Source: a virus
DNA length: 34,799 nt
IMG/VR virus record: IMGVR_UViG_3300023248_000001
Coordinates: 1 to 34,799 of that record
Reading direction: 5' to 3' (one strand)
Below the pieces are notes generated by a model. The model saw nothing but the letters and a program-made list of their open reading frames with translations. It made no database searches and was not told the DNA's origin. The position numbers were made by a program, and so were the translations under genes. Below are positions 3,396 to 34,799 of this stretch, one piece after another. Each line of letters begins with the position of its first letter. Positions within the stretch are counted from its first letter, which is position 1.

Positions 3396-4112
3396 ATGAT
3401 TTATTCAGGTAGTTCTGGTGATTCCTTAATTGAGGACATTACCTTTAGAACAAACGCAGACTTAACAGAATTTACACTCGCCGATAGAACTCGTTATATT
3501 AACGAGGCGTATTCTATTGTGGCTTTTACTATAATGAAAGCTGACGGGCGTATGACTTGGGATGACCCTAATCACCCAGACCAACCTATTTCAACTTTTG
3601 ATTTAGTTGCTAATCAAACTGATTACAATATCTTCTCATCTACTCCAACTGCTATACAAGACTGGTTAGCTATTCAAAGAGTTGATATTATGAACGCTGG
3701 CGGAGTTGGGACACAACTTATTCCTTTAGACCAAAACGACTATAAAGGAACTGCCCAAAGTGAAATGAATAAAGCGGCGGGAATACCGTATGCGTTTGAT
3801 ATGGTCGGTTCAGTAATGCGTTTATATCCTGCTTCTAATTATAATTACTCTGGAGGAGTTACGATTTGGTTTGATAGAGCACCTTCTTATTTTACTGTAT
3901 CAGATACGACTAAACGACCAGGTTTTGATACTCGTTTTCATCAATATCTTTCTATTTATGCCGCTAATCAATGGAATGGGACTAAAAAACGTGATTGGTC
4001 TTTAGAGGGAAAACTTAAAGAGTTAGAACAACAGATAGGAATTACTTATGCGGTAGAAAGAGATAAAGCAGAACAACCAATTATAAAAAGAGAATATAAA
4101 AAGTTTAAATAA
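3396..4112 (+). CDS. Head-tail adaptor-like protein
   Basis: 238 aa. The N-terminal ITFRTNADLTEFTLADRTRY and the following helix-plus-IMKADGRMTWDD pattern resemble the phage adaptor family of podovirus neck proteins. The central part (residues about 75-165) is beta-rich, and the C-terminus is a basic helical tail (KGKLKELEQQIG to KREYKKFK), as in gp4/gp11-type adaptors that dock under the portal. Order after capsid and before tail fibres agrees. Family assignment is from pattern recognition only. Confidence 0.62.
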   Translation: MIYSGSSGDSLIEDITFRTNADLTEFTLADRTRYINEAYSIVAFTIMKADGRMTWDDPNHPDQPISTFDLVANQTDYNIFSSTPTAIQDWLAIQRVDIMNAGGVGTQLIPLDQNDYKGTAQSEMNKAAGIPYAFDMVGSVMRLYPASNYNYSGGVTIWFDRAPSYFTVSDTTKRPGFDTRFHQYLSIYAANQWNGTKKRDWSLEGKLKELEQQIGITYAVERDKAEQPIIKREYKKFK

Positions 4113-24869: not shown

Positions 24870-26000
24870 TTACCACTCATTAATAAATTTTAATTCATCA
24901 CTATTGAAACTAAAGCTTTTTGCTTTTGCCTGCCAGCAAGTAACTTCATCTGTCCCCAGAAAATATTCACGACCTGTTGTCGGGCAAAAACAATTTAAGT
25001 ATTTAATCGTTCCAATTTCAGGAAGTTTAAAGGAAATTATTTTCATCCCATATCCATAACCGTCGTCTTTAACTTCGTCTAAAACTTTATAACCTTTTAA
25101 TTTCTTCATCTTAGTTTTGTCCATCATCTCATAAGCAATACGGCGATGTTCGGTGTTATCTATGGCTAAGACTTCTTTGGCTGACATTTTATCATTTACA
25201 ATTTTATCCCACCATTTCTTTTCAAATTTAATCCCTTGTAAATAATATTCTTCTGTTCCATCTTTCCACGCTAATGCTGGGCTATCAGTAGAATGTAATT
25301 GTTTACGTTCGTTTTGCTTTACAAGTGTTGGTCTAATCATTACAAATGCTACTTTTTCAAAGAATAAAACATAGTAAGCACCAGAACGAAGATAACCTAA
25401 ATAGTTTTTTAATTTACTATCTTTATCTTTATAAATTCCAATTCTTTGCCAGTAGTTCATCCAAGAAGCATCATCAGCGTCACCAGATAAACAAGCGTAA
25501 GATACAGAATCCCAGACAGAAGCCCTGACAGAATCCCCGACAGAATCCCCGACAGAATCCCTGACAGAATCCCTGACAGAATCCCCGACAGAAGCCCTGA
25601 CAGAATCCCTGACAGAAGCCCAGACAGAAGCCCTGACAGAATCCCCGACAGAAGCCCTGACAGAATCCCCGACAGAAGCCCTGACGGAATCCCTGACAGA
25701 AGCCCAGACAGAAGCCCTGACAGAATCCCCGACAGAAGCCCTGACAGAATCCCCGACAGAATCCCCGACAGAATCCCTGACAGAAGCCCAGACAGAAGCC
25801 GAAAACTTTTTAGCTAAATCTTTTGGGCTTTCCACAATAACTACTTTTGGTTCTTCAAAATTAGAAGCATAATACAACCACTTAACACCAGCTTCTATTT
25901 CTTCTTTATCAAATTTCTGTTCGTGAAGTGCCAAATTAATCCATTCATCACGCACAACCGATTGTAGTTCTATTTGTTTTTTTGTTAATTTATTTAGCAT
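24870..26000 (-). CDS. Tetrapeptide-repeat protein with DUF6745-like C-terminus
   Basis: 376 aa. Residues about 1-67 are helical. Then come 25 tandem tetrads of the form (A/D)-S-V-(R/G/W), 300 nt long. The C-terminal about 150 residues (LHSTDSPALAWKDGTEEYYL, then KKWWDKIVNDKMSAKEVLAI, and CPTTGREYFLGTDEVTCWQA) match my recollection of DUF6745-type domains, which often follow repeats. The tetrads would give a regular solenoid or fibre with Ser and Val on fixed faces. Function unknown. The next upstream gene (RHGE-type) seems to travel with it. Confidence 0.7.
   Translation of the reverse strand: MLNKLTKKQIELQSVVRDEWINLALHEQKFDKEEIEAGVKWLYYASNFEEPKVVIVESPKDLAKKFSASVWASVRDSVGDSVGDSVRASVGDSVRASVWASVRDSVRASVGDSVRASVGDSVRASVWASVRDSVRASVGDSVRDSVRDSVGDSVGDSVRASVWDSVSYACLSGDADDASWMNYWQRIGIYKDKDSKLKNYLGYLRSGAYYVLFFEKVAFVMIRPTLVKQNERKQLHSTDSPALAWKDGTEEYYLQGIKFEKKWWDKIVNDKMSAKEVLAIDNTEHRRIAYEMMDKTKMKKLKGYKVLDEVKDDGYGYGMKIISFKLPEIGTIKYLNCFCPTTGREYFLGTDEVTCWQAKAKSFSFNSDELKFINEW
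25500..25799 (-). repeat. 25 x 12-nt tandem repeat
   Basis: 25 units of 12 nt encode (A/D)SV(R/G/W). Almost all variation falls on two bases per unit: GAT or GCT in codon 1, and AGG, GGG or TGG in codon 4. Ser is TCT and Val GTC nearly throughout; one unit has TCC, and the terminal unit reads DSVS with GTA. Such uniform synonymous sites point to recent expansion or continuing homogenisation. Confidence 0.95.
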
Positions 26001-27967: not shown

Positions 27968-27981
27968 TAAAAGCATTTGTT

Positions 27982-28041
27982 CCTAATAGGGAGTTGAACC
28001 CTTAATAAAAATTGGAATTTTTTATCGTTACCGAAATTAGG
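27982..28041 (-). tRNA. Degenerate tRNA-like element
   Basis: Minus strand: CCTAAT (28036-28041) pairs with ATTAGG (27982-27987); a mini D-arm TCG-GTAA-CGA; an anticodon-like hairpin of A and T with loop A-TTCCAA; a 4-nt variable region; and T-arm AGGG-TTCAACT-CCCT with a canonical T-loop. About 60 nt, so shorter than a normal tRNA; acceptor 6 bp, ending AACA rather than CCA. The T-loop and cloverleaf order argue for tRNA origin, possibly Trp-like (CCA) as in the element at 33660. Not a clear functional tRNA. Confidence 0.4.
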
Positions 28042-28117
28042 TTTTGTTAGAAATAAAACTTATCTAACTATACTATAAATGATAGCACGGGACTATCTAT
28101 TTTTCAAGGGTAAATTA

Positions 28118-30119: not shown

Positions 30120-30494
30120 ATGGCAGAAAACTGGATTGAAGCTATGATAGAAAGAGAAGCATTACCTAAATCCGCTAGACAGGAAACAGTAGCGGAATTT
30201 TGTAGTAAATGGAGTATAACTGAAAGCACTTATTATTATCAAAGCTCAAAGCCAGATAATTGGAAAAAGACATTAGAAATTAGTTTAATGTCTGCTAAAA
30301 AAGAATGTCCAGAAATACTAAAGGTATTAGGAGAAAAAGCTAAAGCAGGAGATACAAAAGCTATTGATATGTATTTGAATTATATTGTTCAATTAGCTAA
30401 GAATTTAGATATTAAATCTGACGGTAAAGAATTACAACCAGTTCTAGTTAAATTTATTAATGATGAAACAGACAGAAATACAAATACCGATTGA
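30120..30494 (+). CDS. Terminase small subunit-like protein
   Basis: 124 aa. The N-terminal helical part carries an HTH-like segment (TVAEFCSKWSITESTYYYQS, about 23-42), as in small terminases that recognise pac/cos DNA; the C-terminal helices (LKVLGEKAKAGDTKAIDMYL) provide oligomerisation. It ends with TGA and overlaps the large subunit by 35 nt, the normal small-large order. Confidence 0.75.
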   Translation: MAENWIEAMIEREALPKSARQETVAEFCSKWSITESTYYYQSSKPDNWKKTLEISLMSAKKECPEILKVLGEKAKAGDTKAIDMYLNYIVQLAKNLDIKSDGKELQPVLVKFINDETDRNTNTD

Positions 30495-31668
30495 ATTTAA
30501 AAGACTTTTTGATTCTGATTGGAGAGAGGCTGCAGTTTATGGTGGTCGTTATTCCTTAAAATCTCATACCGTTGCCAGAATACTTTTGATAAGAGCTAGA
30601 CAGAGTAAAATAAGAGTAGCTTGCTTCCGAGAATTTCAAAACTCTATTGTCGATTCTTCATATCAATTATTAAAAAATTTAATCGATCAATACGGACTAA
30701 CAGATTTTAGGATTACTAATACATCAATTATAAATACAGTTAATGGTTCTGACTTTATCTTTAATGGATTACACAATAACGAGCAGAGCATTAAGTCCAC
30801 AGAGGGTATAGATATAGCGTGGGTAGAAGAAGCACAAACAGTTTCTAACACCTCTTTAGAAGTTTTAACACCGACAGTTCGTAAACCAGGTTCACAGTTA
30901 ATTTACACATATAATAGATTACTAGAAGATGACCCAGTTCATCATAGATTAGTTTTAGAAGGTCGCCCCAACACACTTATAATCAATGTCAATTATGATA
31001 TTGCTTTAAAGTATGGAATGATGCCAGAAGTTATTAGGTTAGAAATGGAAGATGACAAAGAGAAAAGACCCTCTTTGTATAAACACAAATGGTTAGGAGA
31101 ACCGAGCAGTTCAGAACGAAAGATTTATAAAGACTGGGCTATATTAGAAGAACTACCACACGAAGCAAGACTTGAAAGATATGGATTAGACTTTGGTTAT
31201 ACTAATGACCCAACTGCTATTGTCGGAATATACAGATATAATGGAGGCTTTATTTTAGATGAAGTTACTTATCAAAAAGGATTAAGTAATAAACAGATAT
31301 CAGACATTTTAAATAACATAGATAAGGCCTTAGTAATAGCTGATTCGGCAGAGCCTAAAAGCATAGATGAAATTAAAGGATATGGAATAAATATATTACC
31401 TTGTGTTAAAGGGAAAGATAGCATTAATCAAGGTATTCAATATGTTCAAGACCAAAAGATTAGTATAACAAAACGAAGTTCTAATCTAATACAAGAATAT
31501 AATCGTTATTTGTGGCAGGTTGATAAACTAGATAAAATTATAAATGTTCCAGAAGGTGGATTTGACCATTGTATGGATGCCATAAGATACGGATTCTCTT
31601 CATATAGACCGCAAGTAATAAATAACTTTACAGGAAGTCTTGGACAAGCAAGACAAATTATAAGATAA
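30460..31668 (+). CDS. Terminase large subunit
   Basis: 402 aa. The ATPase: Walker A-like VYGGRYSLKSHTVA (about 27-39), Walker B IDIAWVEEAQ (117-126). The RNase H-like nuclease: GLDFGYTNDPTA with D244, IADSAEPKS with D295, and FDHCMDAIRYG with D373. This is the Terminase_3/PBSX-type enzyme that packages DNA into the prohead and cuts it. The start is the ATG at 30460 (or 30463), inside the small-subunit gene. Confidence 0.93.
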   Translation: MMKQTEIQIPIEFKRLFDSDWREAAVYGGRYSLKSHTVARILLIRARQSKIRVACFREFQNSIVDSSYQLLKNLIDQYGLTDFRITNTSIINTVNGSDFIFNGLHNNEQSIKSTEGIDIAWVEEAQTVSNTSLEVLTPTVRKPGSQLIYTYNRLLEDDPVHHRLVLEGRPNTLIINVNYDIALKYGMMPEVIRLEMEDDKEKRPSLYKHKWLGEPSSSERKIYKDWAILEELPHEARLERYGLDFGYTNDPTAIVGIYRYNGGFILDEVTYQKGLSNKQISDILNNIDKALVIADSAEPKSIDEIKGYGINILPCVKGKDSINQGIQYVQDQKISITKRSSNLIQEYNRYLWQVDKLDKIINVPEGGFDHCMDAIRYGFSSYRPQVINNFTGSLGQARQIIR

Positions 31669-31669
31669 T

Positions 31670-33400
31670 ATGGAACTTAAGAAAAAAATTAGCACAATTG
31701 TTCAAGAAGAAGTAAAAGATTATAAAGAAAAGTCTTTTCCTATTGATGGCGGTTATTTCTCCCAATTTAACACAATTAGACGTATTAATCTTTACATTAA
31801 TAATCAATACTTAGAACGTGATGCTGAACGTGAGGGATTAATCTTCTGGAATATATCAAATAGTCGTGTTATTCACTTCGCTAAGAATATTGACCTTGAT
31901 ACTAAGGACTTAATGCCATACGGAAAAGGAGAAACTAATTATTGGCAGTCCTGGATACTTAAGTTAAAGTTTAAGAAATGGTTAAAAGATAATCATTTCT
32001 CTCTTTTGCTTAATGACTTAAGCGAAGGTGTATCTACTTATGGTTCTATTGTTTGGAAGAAATATACCGACCCTAAAACAAAAGAAGTTAAGTTAATTGA
32101 ATCTGATTTACGTCGTCTTGCTTTTAAGCAAACATTAAGAACAGTTAGGGACGGGAATATTGTTGAGATGCACTATCTAACTGAAACAGAGATACGAGAA
32201 AAGGAAGGGGCTTGGGATAATATTGATTTAATCCTTAAGAATGCTAAACGTGGAGAAGGTAAAGACCAAGATACCAATGAAAATGCTTTGTATGAAGTTT
32301 GGGAGCGTGTTGGAGAAGTAATGGATACAAATAATAAAATCCATTTTACACACTATATCGGTGCTGGATATGGAGATAAAGAAGTTATTGCTTTTGAAGA
32401 TGAAATTAAAAGAGAACAGAATCCTTATTATGATTTTCATATTGGGAGATATCGTGGTCGTTGGTTGAGAGTTGGTAATGTTGAACGTTTATTCTCATTA
32501 CAGGAACGAGCCAACACAGTAGTTAATCAGAACGCTGAATCTACTGCTATCGCTTCATTACTTTTAATGCGTAGTGCTGACCCAAATACTTATGGAAACA
32601 TTCTACAAGGTGCTATAAGCGGTCAGATAATCAATTCTACTGACTTACAACAGATAGGAATAGATAACAGAGCATTTAATGTTCTTTTAACAGAACTCGA
32701 GAAGATAGAACAGCAAGCAGATACTCTTTGCTTTACTCCCGCTATCGTAACCGGAGAGAAACTCCCTTCCTCAACTCCTTTTAGGGGTATGACTGTAATG
32801 AGTAATGCCGCTAAGTCTGTTTTTGATTACATTAAACAGAGCATAGGAGAAACAGTATCAAATCTTTTAACAGAAGAAATACTCCCAAGCGTTGTTAAGA
32901 AATGGAATCGTGGAGATATGATTGATATGATTGATGATATAAAGGATATCAAGTTGTTTGATGAAACTGTCGTCAAAGCAAAACAAATGGAAGTTCTTAA
33001 ACATAACCTTGATTTAGGAATTGTAACTAGCCAAGAAGAACTAGACAATATCTCTCAAGAAGTTAAATCAATTATTGAAAAGAATGGGAGAAAAATAGAA
33101 ATACCAAAAGGATTCTTTAACTTTGATTATGGTATTTCCTTAAATGTAGTTGGAGAAGCAGTTGATAAAGCTCAACAGAATGATGTTTACTCCCAGATTA
33201 TCCCAATGATAGCCGCTAATCCAGCAATTAAGAACGACCCTTACTTTAGACAATGGGTAGAGAACAACGGTATCACTCCAACAACAATGACAGTTGAAGA
33301 ACTTAACAAACAGGTTGAACAGTTAAAAGGAAGTGCTACTGGTATGACACCACCAACTCCAGCTCCTCAAGATAAATTAATGGCACAAGTTAATCAATAA
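31670..33400 (+). CDS. Portal protein
   Basis: 576 aa, 1 nt after terminase. Portal-like features: a helical N-terminal region, a central DRDGNIVEMHYL-type stem segment (VRDGNIVEMHYLTETEIREK), GRYRGRWLRVGNVERLFSLQ, and a long C-terminal helix region with ASLLLMRSADPNT and a Gln/Pro-rich tail. Size and order (terminase, portal, scaffold, capsid) support it. It forms the dodecameric ring through which DNA passes. Family is not fixed. Confidence 0.85.
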   Translation: MELKKKISTIVQEEVKDYKEKSFPIDGGYFSQFNTIRRINLYINNQYLERDAEREGLIFWNISNSRVIHFAKNIDLDTKDLMPYGKGETNYWQSWILKLKFKKWLKDNHFSLLLNDLSEGVSTYGSIVWKKYTDPKTKEVKLIESDLRRLAFKQTLRTVRDGNIVEMHYLTETEIREKEGAWDNIDLILKNAKRGEGKDQDTNENALYEVWERVGEVMDTNNKIHFTHYIGAGYGDKEVIAFEDEIKREQNPYYDFHIGRYRGRWLRVGNVERLFSLQERANTVVNQNAESTAIASLLLMRSADPNTYGNILQGAISGQIINSTDLQQIGIDNRAFNVLLTELEKIEQQADTLCFTPAIVTGEKLPSSTPFRGMTVMSNAAKSVFDYIKQSIGETVSNLLTEEILPSVVKKWNRGDMIDMIDDIKDIKLFDETVVKAKQMEVLKHNLDLGIVTSQEELDNISQEVKSIIEKNGRKIEIPKGFFNFDYGISLNVVGEAVDKAQQNDVYSQIIPMIAANPAIKNDPYFRQWVENNGITPTTMTVEELNKQVEQLKGSATGMTPPTPAPQDKLMAQVNQ

Positions 33401-33402
33401 AT

Positions 33403-33645
33403 ATGAATCTAAACATTAAGGCAACAATGGCGACTGGTGGTTGGCAGGAAATACGCCAGATGTTAGAAAATAAAAAGAACGGATTAAGACTTCCTAAGAA
33501 TGTAAACAAGAACAAGGATTATAAGAATATAGCGATAGAAACTTTAGGGAAGGCTTATGCGGTTAGGATAATTGATAGATGGTTAAAAGAACTTGATGGA
33601 ATAAATAATGTTAAACAAGGAGAAGTAAAGAAAAGGCTCATTTAA
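33403..33645 (+). CDS. Small basic protein after portal (80 aa)
   Basis: MNLNIKATMATGGWQEIRQM, then IAIETLGKAYAVRIIDRWLK, a helical basic protein. No family is recognised. Directly precedes the tRNA-Trp-like element. Confidence 0.6.
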   Translation: MNLNIKATMATGGWQEIRQMLENKKNGLRLPKNVNKNKDYKNIAIETLGKAYAVRIIDRWLKELDGINNVKQGEVKKRLI

Positions 33646-33659
33646 AATCTGCGTAGATA

Positions 33660-33729
33660 ACGATAGACTTCGGAAGTAATGAGGTTTCCAAAACCTTATA
33701 AGGGTGTCCGGCACACTCCTATCGTGCCA
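33660..33729 (+). tRNA. tRNA-Trp-like (anticodon CCA) with encoded CCA and minimal D-arm
   Basis: Acceptor ACGATAG/CTATCGT (33660-33666/33719-33725, 7 bp perfect), G73 at 33726, and CCA at 33727-33729. Anticodon arm GAGGT-TTCCAAA-ACCTT (33681-33697) has a 5-bp stem (one G-T), U33 and anticodon CCA (33688-33690). Variable loop ATAA, then T-arm GGGTG-TCCGGCA-CACTC (33702-33718). The D region is only 14 nt (33667-33680), folding as ACTT-CGG-AAGT. G73 is the usual tRNA-Trp discriminator. The T-loop lacks the usual TTCRA, so charging and decoding are uncertain. Confidence 0.6.
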
Positions 33730-33760
33730 ATCTCACTAAAGAGAATAAAAAGTTTAAATT

Positions 33761-33776
33761 ACAGGACTAAACCTGT
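33761..33776 (+). terminator. Hairpin after tRNA-like element, before scaffold gene
   Basis: ACAGG (33761-33765) and CCTGT (33772-33776) pair around ACTAAA, flanked by TTTAAA on both sides, which could extend the stem. A weak terminator or a processing signal; it lies 32 nt upstream of the scaffold-like gene, and reading on into the capsid gene must remain possible. Confidence 0.4.
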
Positions 33777-33807
33777 TTAAAAAATGTTTTAAAATAGACA
33801 AAACTAT

Positions 33808-34374
33808 ATGTCAAATGAAATCGAAGACATCTTAGAAGATGAAGAGGAAACAATAGAGGAAACTCCGATTGTTGAAACTAAATCTGAAAAGAAAAAACTT
33901 GACCTGTCATTTATGGATAAGCCAGCAGACGAATGGACAACTGATGACGCAGACGCTGCGAAAAAGTATGCCCTAACTCTAAAGGCCCAAAAAGAACACT
34001 TCAAGGCAAAAGCTACCGCTAAGGTAGAAGAACCTAATAAACTAAAACAAGAAACACCTAACCTTACAAATGTTTCCGAAGAGATTGACATTCGGTTTAT
34101 GAAGAGAGATGGAATATCTGATGAAGATATTGAACAACTTAAATTCATTCAAGCTGGAATTAAAGCTCAAGGAAAAGATGTGTCTTTAATGGAAGCACAA
34201 ACTAACCCATTATATCAGGCATATCAAGAGAACAAAAAACTACAAGCAAGGAGAGAGAGCGCACAGATTATTTCAAGTGGACAACCTTTAAATAGCGAAG
34301 GGAAACCTTTAACAGATGAAGAGTTTGAAGCTGTTAGAAAGGCTGACGCTGATGCTGTCCTTGCTAAGATGTAA
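33808..34374 (+). CDS. Scaffold-like protein (188 aa)
   Basis: Strongly acidic N-terminus (EDILEDEEETIEETPIVETK), Lys-rich middle and helical C-terminal half (DGISDEDIEQLKFIQAGIKA; EENKKLQARRESAQIISSG). No enzyme motif. The acidic and helical make-up, the length, and position between portal and capsid are typical of scaffolding proteins, which guide coat assembly and then leave the head. Confidence 0.72.
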   Translation: MSNEIEDILEDEEETIEETPIVETKSEKKKLDLSFMDKPADEWTTDDADAAKKYALTLKAQKEHFKAKATAKVEEPNKLKQETPNLTNVSEEIDIRFMKRDGISDEDIEQLKFIQAGIKAQGKDVSLMEAQTNPLYQAYQENKKLQARRESAQIISSGQPLNSEGKPLTDEEFEAVRKADADAVLAKM

Positions 34375-34410: not shown

Positions 34411-34799
34411 ATGGGAGCTTTCCCAGCCGATGTAATGACCCCAACCAATCTTGCGGCATTCATCAACAAAATTTGGTCACCAAGAATTAACAACTTTGCT
34501 AAAGAAAAACAACACGCAGCTCGTTTCTTCACTAATCGTTCTGATGAATTAGCAGCTGGTGGCGACACTCTATATACTGGCACAATGGCAGAAATGAGTG
34601 CTAACACTCGTGCTTATACAAGTTCTCCTTTAACAACTGTTGTATTAAACGCACAAACAGACGCTAATGTCACTTTGACAATTAACACCTGGAAGGAAGT
34701 TTCCTTCGCTATCTCTGACGGAGAAGCTGCTGTATTCTTACGTTCTCGCTACACACAGGAGAAGTATGCTAAGAATGCTGCTTACACCGCTGCTATGAC
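34411..34799 (+). CDS. Major capsid protein, N-terminal part (split by contig ends)
   Basis: The start ATG at 34411 follows the leader CTTTTAAAACATT, AT-rich and without Shine-Dalgarno, as for most genes here. The N-terminus reads MGAFPADVMTPTNLAAFINK. The frame runs off the window and continues in frame at base 118 to the stop at 634. It lies 36 nt after the scaffold-like gene, the usual scaffold-coat order. The protein would form the procapsid shell on the scaffold encoded upstream. Confidence 0.86.
   Translation, partial: MGAFPADVMTPTNLAAFINKIWSPRINNFAKEKQHAARFFTNRSDELAAGGDTLYTGTMAEMSANTRAYTSSPLTTVVLNAQTDANVTLTINTWKEVSFAISDGEAAVFLRSRYTQEKYAKNAAYTAAM
34683..34799. repeat. 117-bp terminal direct repeat (right copy)
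   Basis: Identical to bases 1-117. It carries codons of the major capsid gene that starts at 34411 and continues at base 118 of the window. It indicates circular topology of the contig. Confidence 0.97.

Follow-up and report, generated by a model that had tools for sequence, protein, structure and literature searches.

A tRNA-like fold in a phage head-gene operon and a family of anticodon-less minihelices that probably act as intercistronic punctuation

What is a tRNA-like cloverleaf doing between the head genes of a phage? The window analyzed here (the whole 34,799-nucleotide stretch of IMG/VR virus record IMGVR_UViG_3300023248_000001) carries such a fold at positions 33660 to 33729. A sequence-only reading had described it as tRNA-Trp-like with a minimal D-arm, either a miniature phage tRNA or a tRNA mimic for packaging, RNA processing, or decoying host enzymes, and had called its place between portal and scaffold genes unusual. 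The gene order in the window is terminase large subunit, portal-like protein, an 80-amino-acid (aa) open reading frame (ORF), the element, scaffold-like protein, and capsid-like protein. As PHROGs and Pfam gave no match for any of the four proteins after the terminase, the labels portal, scaffold, and capsid derive from gene order and conservation. The features of this region are given below, with the evidence in parentheses; L002 is the locus of the nearest relative.

30460 to 31668, + strand: terminase large subunit, where the head-gene run begins (PHROG 3717, E = 1e-53)
31670 to 33400, + strand: portal-like protein, so named in the sequence-only reading (query for finding relatives)
33403 to 33645, + strand: 80-aa ORF after the portal (a small ORF of similar size is kept in relatives)
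33660 to 33729, + strand: tRNA-Trp-like mini cloverleaf, whole element (sequence, folding, shuffle scan, and compensatory changes relative to L002)
33660 to 33666, + strand: acceptor stem 5′ strand ACGATAG, with its partner at 33719 to 33725 (sequence; three double changes relative to L002)
33667 to 33680, + strand: mini D region, hairpin ACTT-CGG-AAGT followed by AAT (sequence and folding; one double change relative to L002)
33681 to 33697, + strand: anticodon arm GAGGT-TTCCAAA-ACCTT, with the anticodon CCA at 33688 to 33690 (identical in L002 and in the mini tRNA-Trp of L009, L017, and L019)
33702 to 33718, + strand: T-arm GGGTG-TCCGGCA-CACTC with a noncanonical loop (sequence; three double changes relative to L002)
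33719 to 33729, + strand: acceptor 3′ strand CTATCGT, discriminator G73, and encoded CCA (sequence; GCTA here in L002)
33731 to 33807, + strand: leader from the element to the scaffold start, with small hairpins CTC-ACTAAA-GAG, CAGG-ACTAAA-CCTG, and ATAG-ACAAAA-CTAT (by eye, without statistics)
33808 to 34374, + strand: scaffold-like ORF, the first gene past the element (position only)
34411 to 34797, + strand: 5′ part of the major-capsid-like ORF, the rest lying at 2 to 634 across the circular junction (gene order; no database family)

The 80-aa ORF stop (33645) and the scaffold-like start (33808) enclose a 162-nt gap that holds the element on the coding strand, codirectional with its neighbors and beginning 14 nt past the stop codon. 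Runs of hairpins with ACTAAA or ACAAAA loops occur 5′ of the scaffold start in the window (33731 to 33807) and in L002, L023, L025, L040, L051, L055, and L061, sometimes immediately before the scaffold ATG. The ends of the window (about 1 to 138 and about 34660 to 34799) repeat each other, so the record looks circular or complete; the junction interrupts the capsid ORF, whose remainder lies at the start. A 376-aa ORF with a repeated DSVxxSVRASVWASV-type motif lies on the − strand at 24870 to 26000. A search for the host found no portal relative in genome contigs and no DNA match among named phages.

The element (70 nt) reads ACGATAG/ACTT-CGG-AAGT-AAT/GAGGT-TTCCAAA-ACCTT/ATAA/GGGTG-TCCGGCA-CACTC/CTATCGT/G/CCA. 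Its tRNA-Trp features are as they had been described: a perfect 7-bp acceptor, a 5-bp/7-nt anticodon arm with U33 and anticodon CCA, G73, and an encoded CCA end. The cloverleaf is both the minimum free energy and the centroid structure (−20.3 kcal/mol; z = −1.93 against dinucleotide shuffles), and when the whole window was shuffled 60 times with an order-1 Markov model and both strands were scanned for relaxed-D cloverleaves, no structure equal to it came up. The "minimal D-arm" can be refined: the D region does measure 14 nt, and it contains a genuine 4-bp hairpin, the CGG loop of which could pair with CCG in the T-loop. The fold departs from a standard tRNA in two respects. The T-loop, TCCGGCA here and CTCGACA in L002, does not follow TTCRANY (U54, U55, and A58), and the short D region lacks positions 8 and 9 and hence a normal D-arm with U8 and A14. 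ARAGORN predicted no tRNA gene in the window, leaving the element uncalled, Rfam gave no match to it at an E value of ≤1, and both left the counterpart elements of the relatives uncalled. Read directly, the sequence after 33729 has no U run, so the signature of an intrinsic terminator (a GC hairpin and then a U run) is absent. A second possible tRNA-Trp-like cloverleaf with anticodon CCA lies in an intergenic gap on the − strand (27979 to 28053; TTTCTAA..AAAAA-TTCCAAT-TTTTT..AGGG-TTCAACT-CCCT..TTAGGAA); it has a canonical T-loop and no CCA end, and its folding is weak (z = −0.83).

Compensatory stem changes in a related phage had been named beforehand as the test of the cloverleaf, and the comparison with L002 bore it out. 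The L002 portal is 79% identical to that of the window, and a cloverleaf occupies the same place (ACGGTTT/GCTT-CGGC-AAGC-GTC/GAGGT-TTCCAAA-ACCTT/GATTA/GTAGG-CTCGACA-CCTAC/AAACCGT/GCTA). Seven pairs are doubly changed (three in the acceptor, one in the D stem, and three in the T stem), with no single-sided change and no broken pair. The anticodon arm is identical at 17/17 positions, against about 72% identity in the flanking DNA, a hint that the arm with its CCA anticodon is under selection. Common to both elements are the CCA anticodon, G73, A1-U72, and U33, and a sequence reading indicates that in both the D-loop GG could pair with T-loop positions 55 and 56. Since L002 ends in GCTA, an encoded CCA is not essential. 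The window element is a genuine, evolutionarily conserved tRNA-like RNA fold.

Profile searches with the portal and capsid yielded about 60 further loci, mostly with the same gene order. In ten more-distant relatives (L006, L021/22, L023/24, L025, L028, L031, L038, L040/42, L051, and L079), the gap after the small ORF holds a minihelix, consisting of an acceptor stem, a GG-bearing linker, a canonical TTCRANY T-arm, and the acceptor 3′ strand, without an anticodon arm (in L040, GGTAG-AAAGGCATACA-GGTTAG-TTCAAGT-CTAACC-CTACC). The window element does lie between portal and scaffold, after the 80-aa ORF, but with the relatives' minihelix in the same place, the location is not an oddity. In the portal tree, the window and L002 form a clade (100) nested among genomes of the minihelix type and of other types; at this gap, several relatives show different hairpins, a pseudoknot, or nothing obvious. 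The apparent H-type pseudoknot (CGAGG-CAGT-CCTCG..ACTG) occupies the position of the window element in L055 (5383 to 5458) and L056 (3073 to 3118) and is preQ1-I-like in outline only. The L006 element was considered as a T-armless tRNA-Lys and is better read as a minihelix (GGATAG..GCCG-TTCAACT-CGGC..CTATCC) with a hairpin of its own directly after it (3949 to 3990; GCCAGACTCTTAATCTGGT); this hairpin resembles a typical bacterial tRNA-Lys(CUU) anticodon arm. Minihelix model R1 matched the positional counterparts in L021, L023, L028, L031, L038, L040, L051, and L079 and, with filters off, gave no match at 33660 to 33729, where there is an anticodon arm and a noncanonical T-loop. The link of the window element to the minihelix family is therefore conserved position and a shared upper half, not sequence.

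The canonical minihelix is about 40 nt long and comprises 5 bp, an 11-nt linker (AnnGGCAnRCA), 6 bp, a 7-nt loop (TTCRAGY), and an R-C tail, in which R73-C74 is conserved and C75 is avoided; the acceptor helix ends sharply. That N-1 never pairs with N73 was built into the finder and is not evidence, so we used the fixed 5-bp acceptor length instead. In an alignment of 28 nonredundant minihelices, nearly all of them <80% identical to one another, 99.2% of cells are paired and 12 of 13 pairs show double changes, the 13th being an invariant G-C. The covariation score for these sequences is 1.02, against 0.22 when shuffled and at most 0.18 when slid. Two contacts outside the helices covary strongly over 164 sequences, namely, linker positions 7 and 13 (C-G, 109; G-C, 30; A-T, 20) and linker position 14 with the last T-loop base, 29 (A-T, 112; G-C, 46). 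This second contact appears to stand in for the Levitt pair of tRNA. Acceptor, T-arm, and GG elbow are thus kept via compensatory change both between the window and L002 and across the minihelix family.

Rfam holds no family corresponding to the minihelix, and we found no description of it in the open-licence literature. Among the matches listed for a second pattern in IMG/VR, 125/137 complete a whole minihelix. A stricter pattern gave 3 matches across bacterial and archaeal genomes totaling 257 Gb, compared with at least 41 viral loci; the minihelix is rare in bacterial genomes. One cellular match, in a Bacteroidetes metagenome-assembled genome, lies beside Mu-like transposition genes, and another, in Amycolatopsis, beside WhiB and replication-initiation genes; the third, a Kribbella locus, has no clear phage gene nearby. 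The Kribbella family has a match in 2 of 38 genomes (a first look, scoring 150 candidates per genome). Because the minihelix finder was tuned with members in view, its control on shuffled sequence (0.67, versus roughly 27 distinct real matches) is descriptive. Streptococcus phages IPP16 and V22, weak BLAST matches, have no element.

When distances are measured to the ends of same-strand ORFs of at least 60 codons, 172 of 242 elements start between −5 and +20 nt, with a peak at 6 to 8 nt; the corresponding counts are 26.5 for random positions and 36 for the opposite strand. Naive ORF calls on GC-rich contigs had placed many elements "inside" ORFs, and these calls were dropped in favor of annotated genomes and stop-codon distances. 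Multiple copies occur in phages of Streptomyces, Mycobacterium, and Gordonia; the count reaches 15 in one IMG/VR genome. The elements of Endor1 and Izzy (Streptomyces), Papyrus (Mycobacterium), and Aleemily (Gordonia) are codirectional with their flanking genes, the exception being the outermost copy in Endor1, whose preceding gene is divergent. Codirectional gaps of ≥75 nt in these four annotated actinophages contain an element in 36 of 44 cases inside the element-bearing span and in 0 of 22 outside it. Not all Streptomyces phages carry the minihelix, as phiC31 has no elements.

In T7-like cyanopodoviruses, the minihelix lies just upstream of the capsid gene, with a variant in P-SSP7, and NATL1A-7 has an annotated full tRNA-Gly in the minihelix's place. 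Another minihelix match lies near the left genome end of P-SSP7 (AY939843, 603 to 647). Other structures accompany these genes: a conserved ~60-nt element (GGCTTCTGGCCCCTACGGGGATACCCATAAGCCGTCTAGACGGTGGGATAGACCACAA) without an Rfam match, which separates the tRNA-like unit from the capsid gene in cyanopodoviruses L089 to L100 and in L087 (462 to 528); a covarying hairpin with conserved loop CACCTCAGAGTCGGA that replaces the minihelix upstream of the capsid gene in L091, L093, L094, L098, and L100; and, farther upstream of capsid genes, Glutamine-II riboswitch aptamers identified with Rfam (L087, 260 to 314; L095, 280 to 333; L097, 309 to 363; L100, 39 to 91).

Multiple copies, codirectionality, and stop-adjacent placement suggest action in cis on the transcript, and we propose that the minihelix is probably an intercistronic tRNA-like punctuation signal and a putative RNase P substrate. 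The acceptor stem stacked on the T-arm, together with the D/T elbow, is the part of a tRNA recognized by RNase P, RNase Z, the CCA-adding enzyme, and EF-Tu. Within the polycistronic head-gene transcript, the window element would divide the terminase-portal part from the scaffold-capsid part. Host tRNA-maturation machinery would recognize its upper half, with the elbow closed by the D-loop GG, and RNase P would most likely cleave at the 5′ end of the acceptor, some 14 nt beyond the stop codon of the preceding ORF. The upstream message would then keep its stop codon, and the scaffold-capsid message would gain its own 5′ end capped by a stable fold. Most relatives would do the same job with the 40-nt minihelix, which many actinophages repeat in successive gaps of one operon, while in the window lineage the site would be held by a mini tRNA-Trp that probably also keeps a tRNA role and may be chargeable. 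We infer this common job despite the noncanonical T-loop of the window element, the lack of an R1 match, and the other structures, or none, of several relatives, and we see about an even chance that the window element is such a cis mark, a probable RNase P substrate equivalent to the relatives' minihelix. The wider proposal, that many unrelated phages punctuate operons with a minimal minihelix that hands mRNA cutting to host RNase P and that the window form doubles as a chargeable tRNA-Trp, falls somewhat short of even and is offered tentatively.

Three features favor RNase P: the unvarying end of the helix, the conserved R73-C74, and the ability of a full tRNA to stand in for the element. Known substrates of this enzyme include pre-tmRNA, the phage M3 and C4 RNAs, T4 gene 32 mRNA, and some mRNAs (PMC11143913). 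Against this enzyme, however, the minihelix has an acceptor/T stack of 11 bp, where tRNA has one more, and its tail reads R-C-not C in place of the 3′ RCCA used by bacterial RNase P RNA (for example, PMC12710915).

The window element might instead be simply a working miniature tRNA-Trp that is matured, charged by host TrpRS, and reads UGG, its operon location serving only to secure transcription. The invariant CCA, G73, A1-U72, and U33 fit this reading, as does an anticodon arm left intact while the other arms turned over. A search of IMG/VR with the 17-nt anticodon arm also found, in unrelated phages, the mini tRNA-Trp of L009, L019, and L017, with D regions of 14 to 15 nt, canonical T-loops, and GCCA ends. 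L009 and L019 are T7-like genomes, judging by the polymerase and other genes among their ORFs; the L017 copy sits in a ten-tRNA array and is called by ARAGORN. A short-D tRNA-Trp can therefore be a real tRNA. Relative L040 also has, farther on, a separate and fuller tRNA-Trp besides its minihelix. On the other hand, the element that relatives maintain at this site has no anticodon, which excludes decoding as the function common to all of them. The T-loop lacks U55 and A58, tRNA finders reject the element, L002 does without an encoded CCA, and the downstream genes show no notable enrichment of UGG. We regard tRNA function as the sole explanation as unlikely. That the cloverleaf is a chance fold in an AT-rich gap has negligible probability: its z-score is modest, but no shuffled window produced its equal, and the double changes relative to L002 already refute the idea.

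The main rival to RNase P cutting is a barrier rather than a cut site, in which the fold would stop 3′-to-5′ or 5′-to-3′ exonucleases, like the exonuclease-resistant RNAs of viruses, and thereby give neighboring genes different half-lives. A start 6 to 8 nt past the stop codon is close to the footprint of a terminating ribosome, and the covarying tertiary contacts would suit such a barrier. A barrier would have no need, however, for a fixed 5-bp acceptor, a conserved R-C, or close mimicry of the tRNA elbow, and the full tRNA-Gly of NATL1A-7 suggests tRNA processing, making a barrier distinctly unlikely in our judgment. A trans-acting mimic, whether a packaging signal or a decoy for tRNA-cutting host defenses or for SmpB/EF-Tu, has in its favor a general resemblance, apparent on direct reading, to tRNA and the tRNA-like domain of tmRNA. 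Strictly intercistronic, codirectional, stop-adjacent placement in up to 15 copies per genome fits a cis role instead, most members lack an anticodon arm, and there is no consistent G3-U70 for AlaRS; we consider such a mimic very improbable. Of the functions first suggested for the element, RNA processing by a genuine tRNA-like RNA is best supported, and nothing points to packaging or decoying.

Probable RNase P punctuation has its closest analogue in mitochondrial tRNA punctuation, where tRNA-shaped units likewise lie between genes on the coding strand and tRNA-processing enzymes release the mRNAs. Most of the phage units, by contrast, have no anticodon arm and cannot decode, and their cleavage is putative; our search of the open-licence literature found no phage case of tRNA punctuation. 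mascRNA and MEN-beta tRNA-like RNAs are also anticodon-poor and cut from a longer transcript by RNase P, but they belong to eukaryotic nuclear long noncoding RNAs and differ in sequence and setting. The tRNA-like domain of tmRNA, an RNase P substrate (PMC11143913), resembles the minihelix in having an acceptor, a T-arm, and a GG-bearing D-loop-like strand without an anticodon arm. The minihelix, at about 40 nt and in many copies in cis, lacks the alanine G3-U70, CCA, and tag ORF of tmRNA: the third pair is G-C in the window, the minihelix alignment has no consistent G-U, and Rfam tmRNA models gave no match at a meaningful score. The non-tRNA phage RNAs cut by host RNase P, namely, phi80 M3 RNA, P1/P7 C4 RNA, and T4 gene 32 mRNA (PMC11143913), are compared with the minihelix for their cleavage and are single cases rather than a repeated intergenic family. 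Among phage tRNA genes, the tRNA-Trp of L009, L017, L019, and L040 share the anticodon arm of the window element, and the first three also its short D region, yet these phage tRNA genes have canonical T-loops and, except for the NATL1A-7 tRNA-Gly upstream of the capsid gene, other locations. tRNA-like structures and tRNA punctuation are already known; an anticodon-less, multicopy tRNA-like element of phages is apparently undescribed in the open-licence literature.

The punctuation idea is directly testable in laboratory phages, such as the Streptomyces phages Endor1 and Izzy. If it is true, phages of marine, soil, and other settings would share a host-encoded way to cut or stabilize polycistronic mRNA: they would mimic that half of tRNA whose recognition is indispensable to the processing enzymes of every bacterium. 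This would explain how adjacent genes reach different levels without promoters or terminators, would add a natural class of minimal RNase P substrates, and would supply an annotation feature for phage-genome gaps that are now blank.
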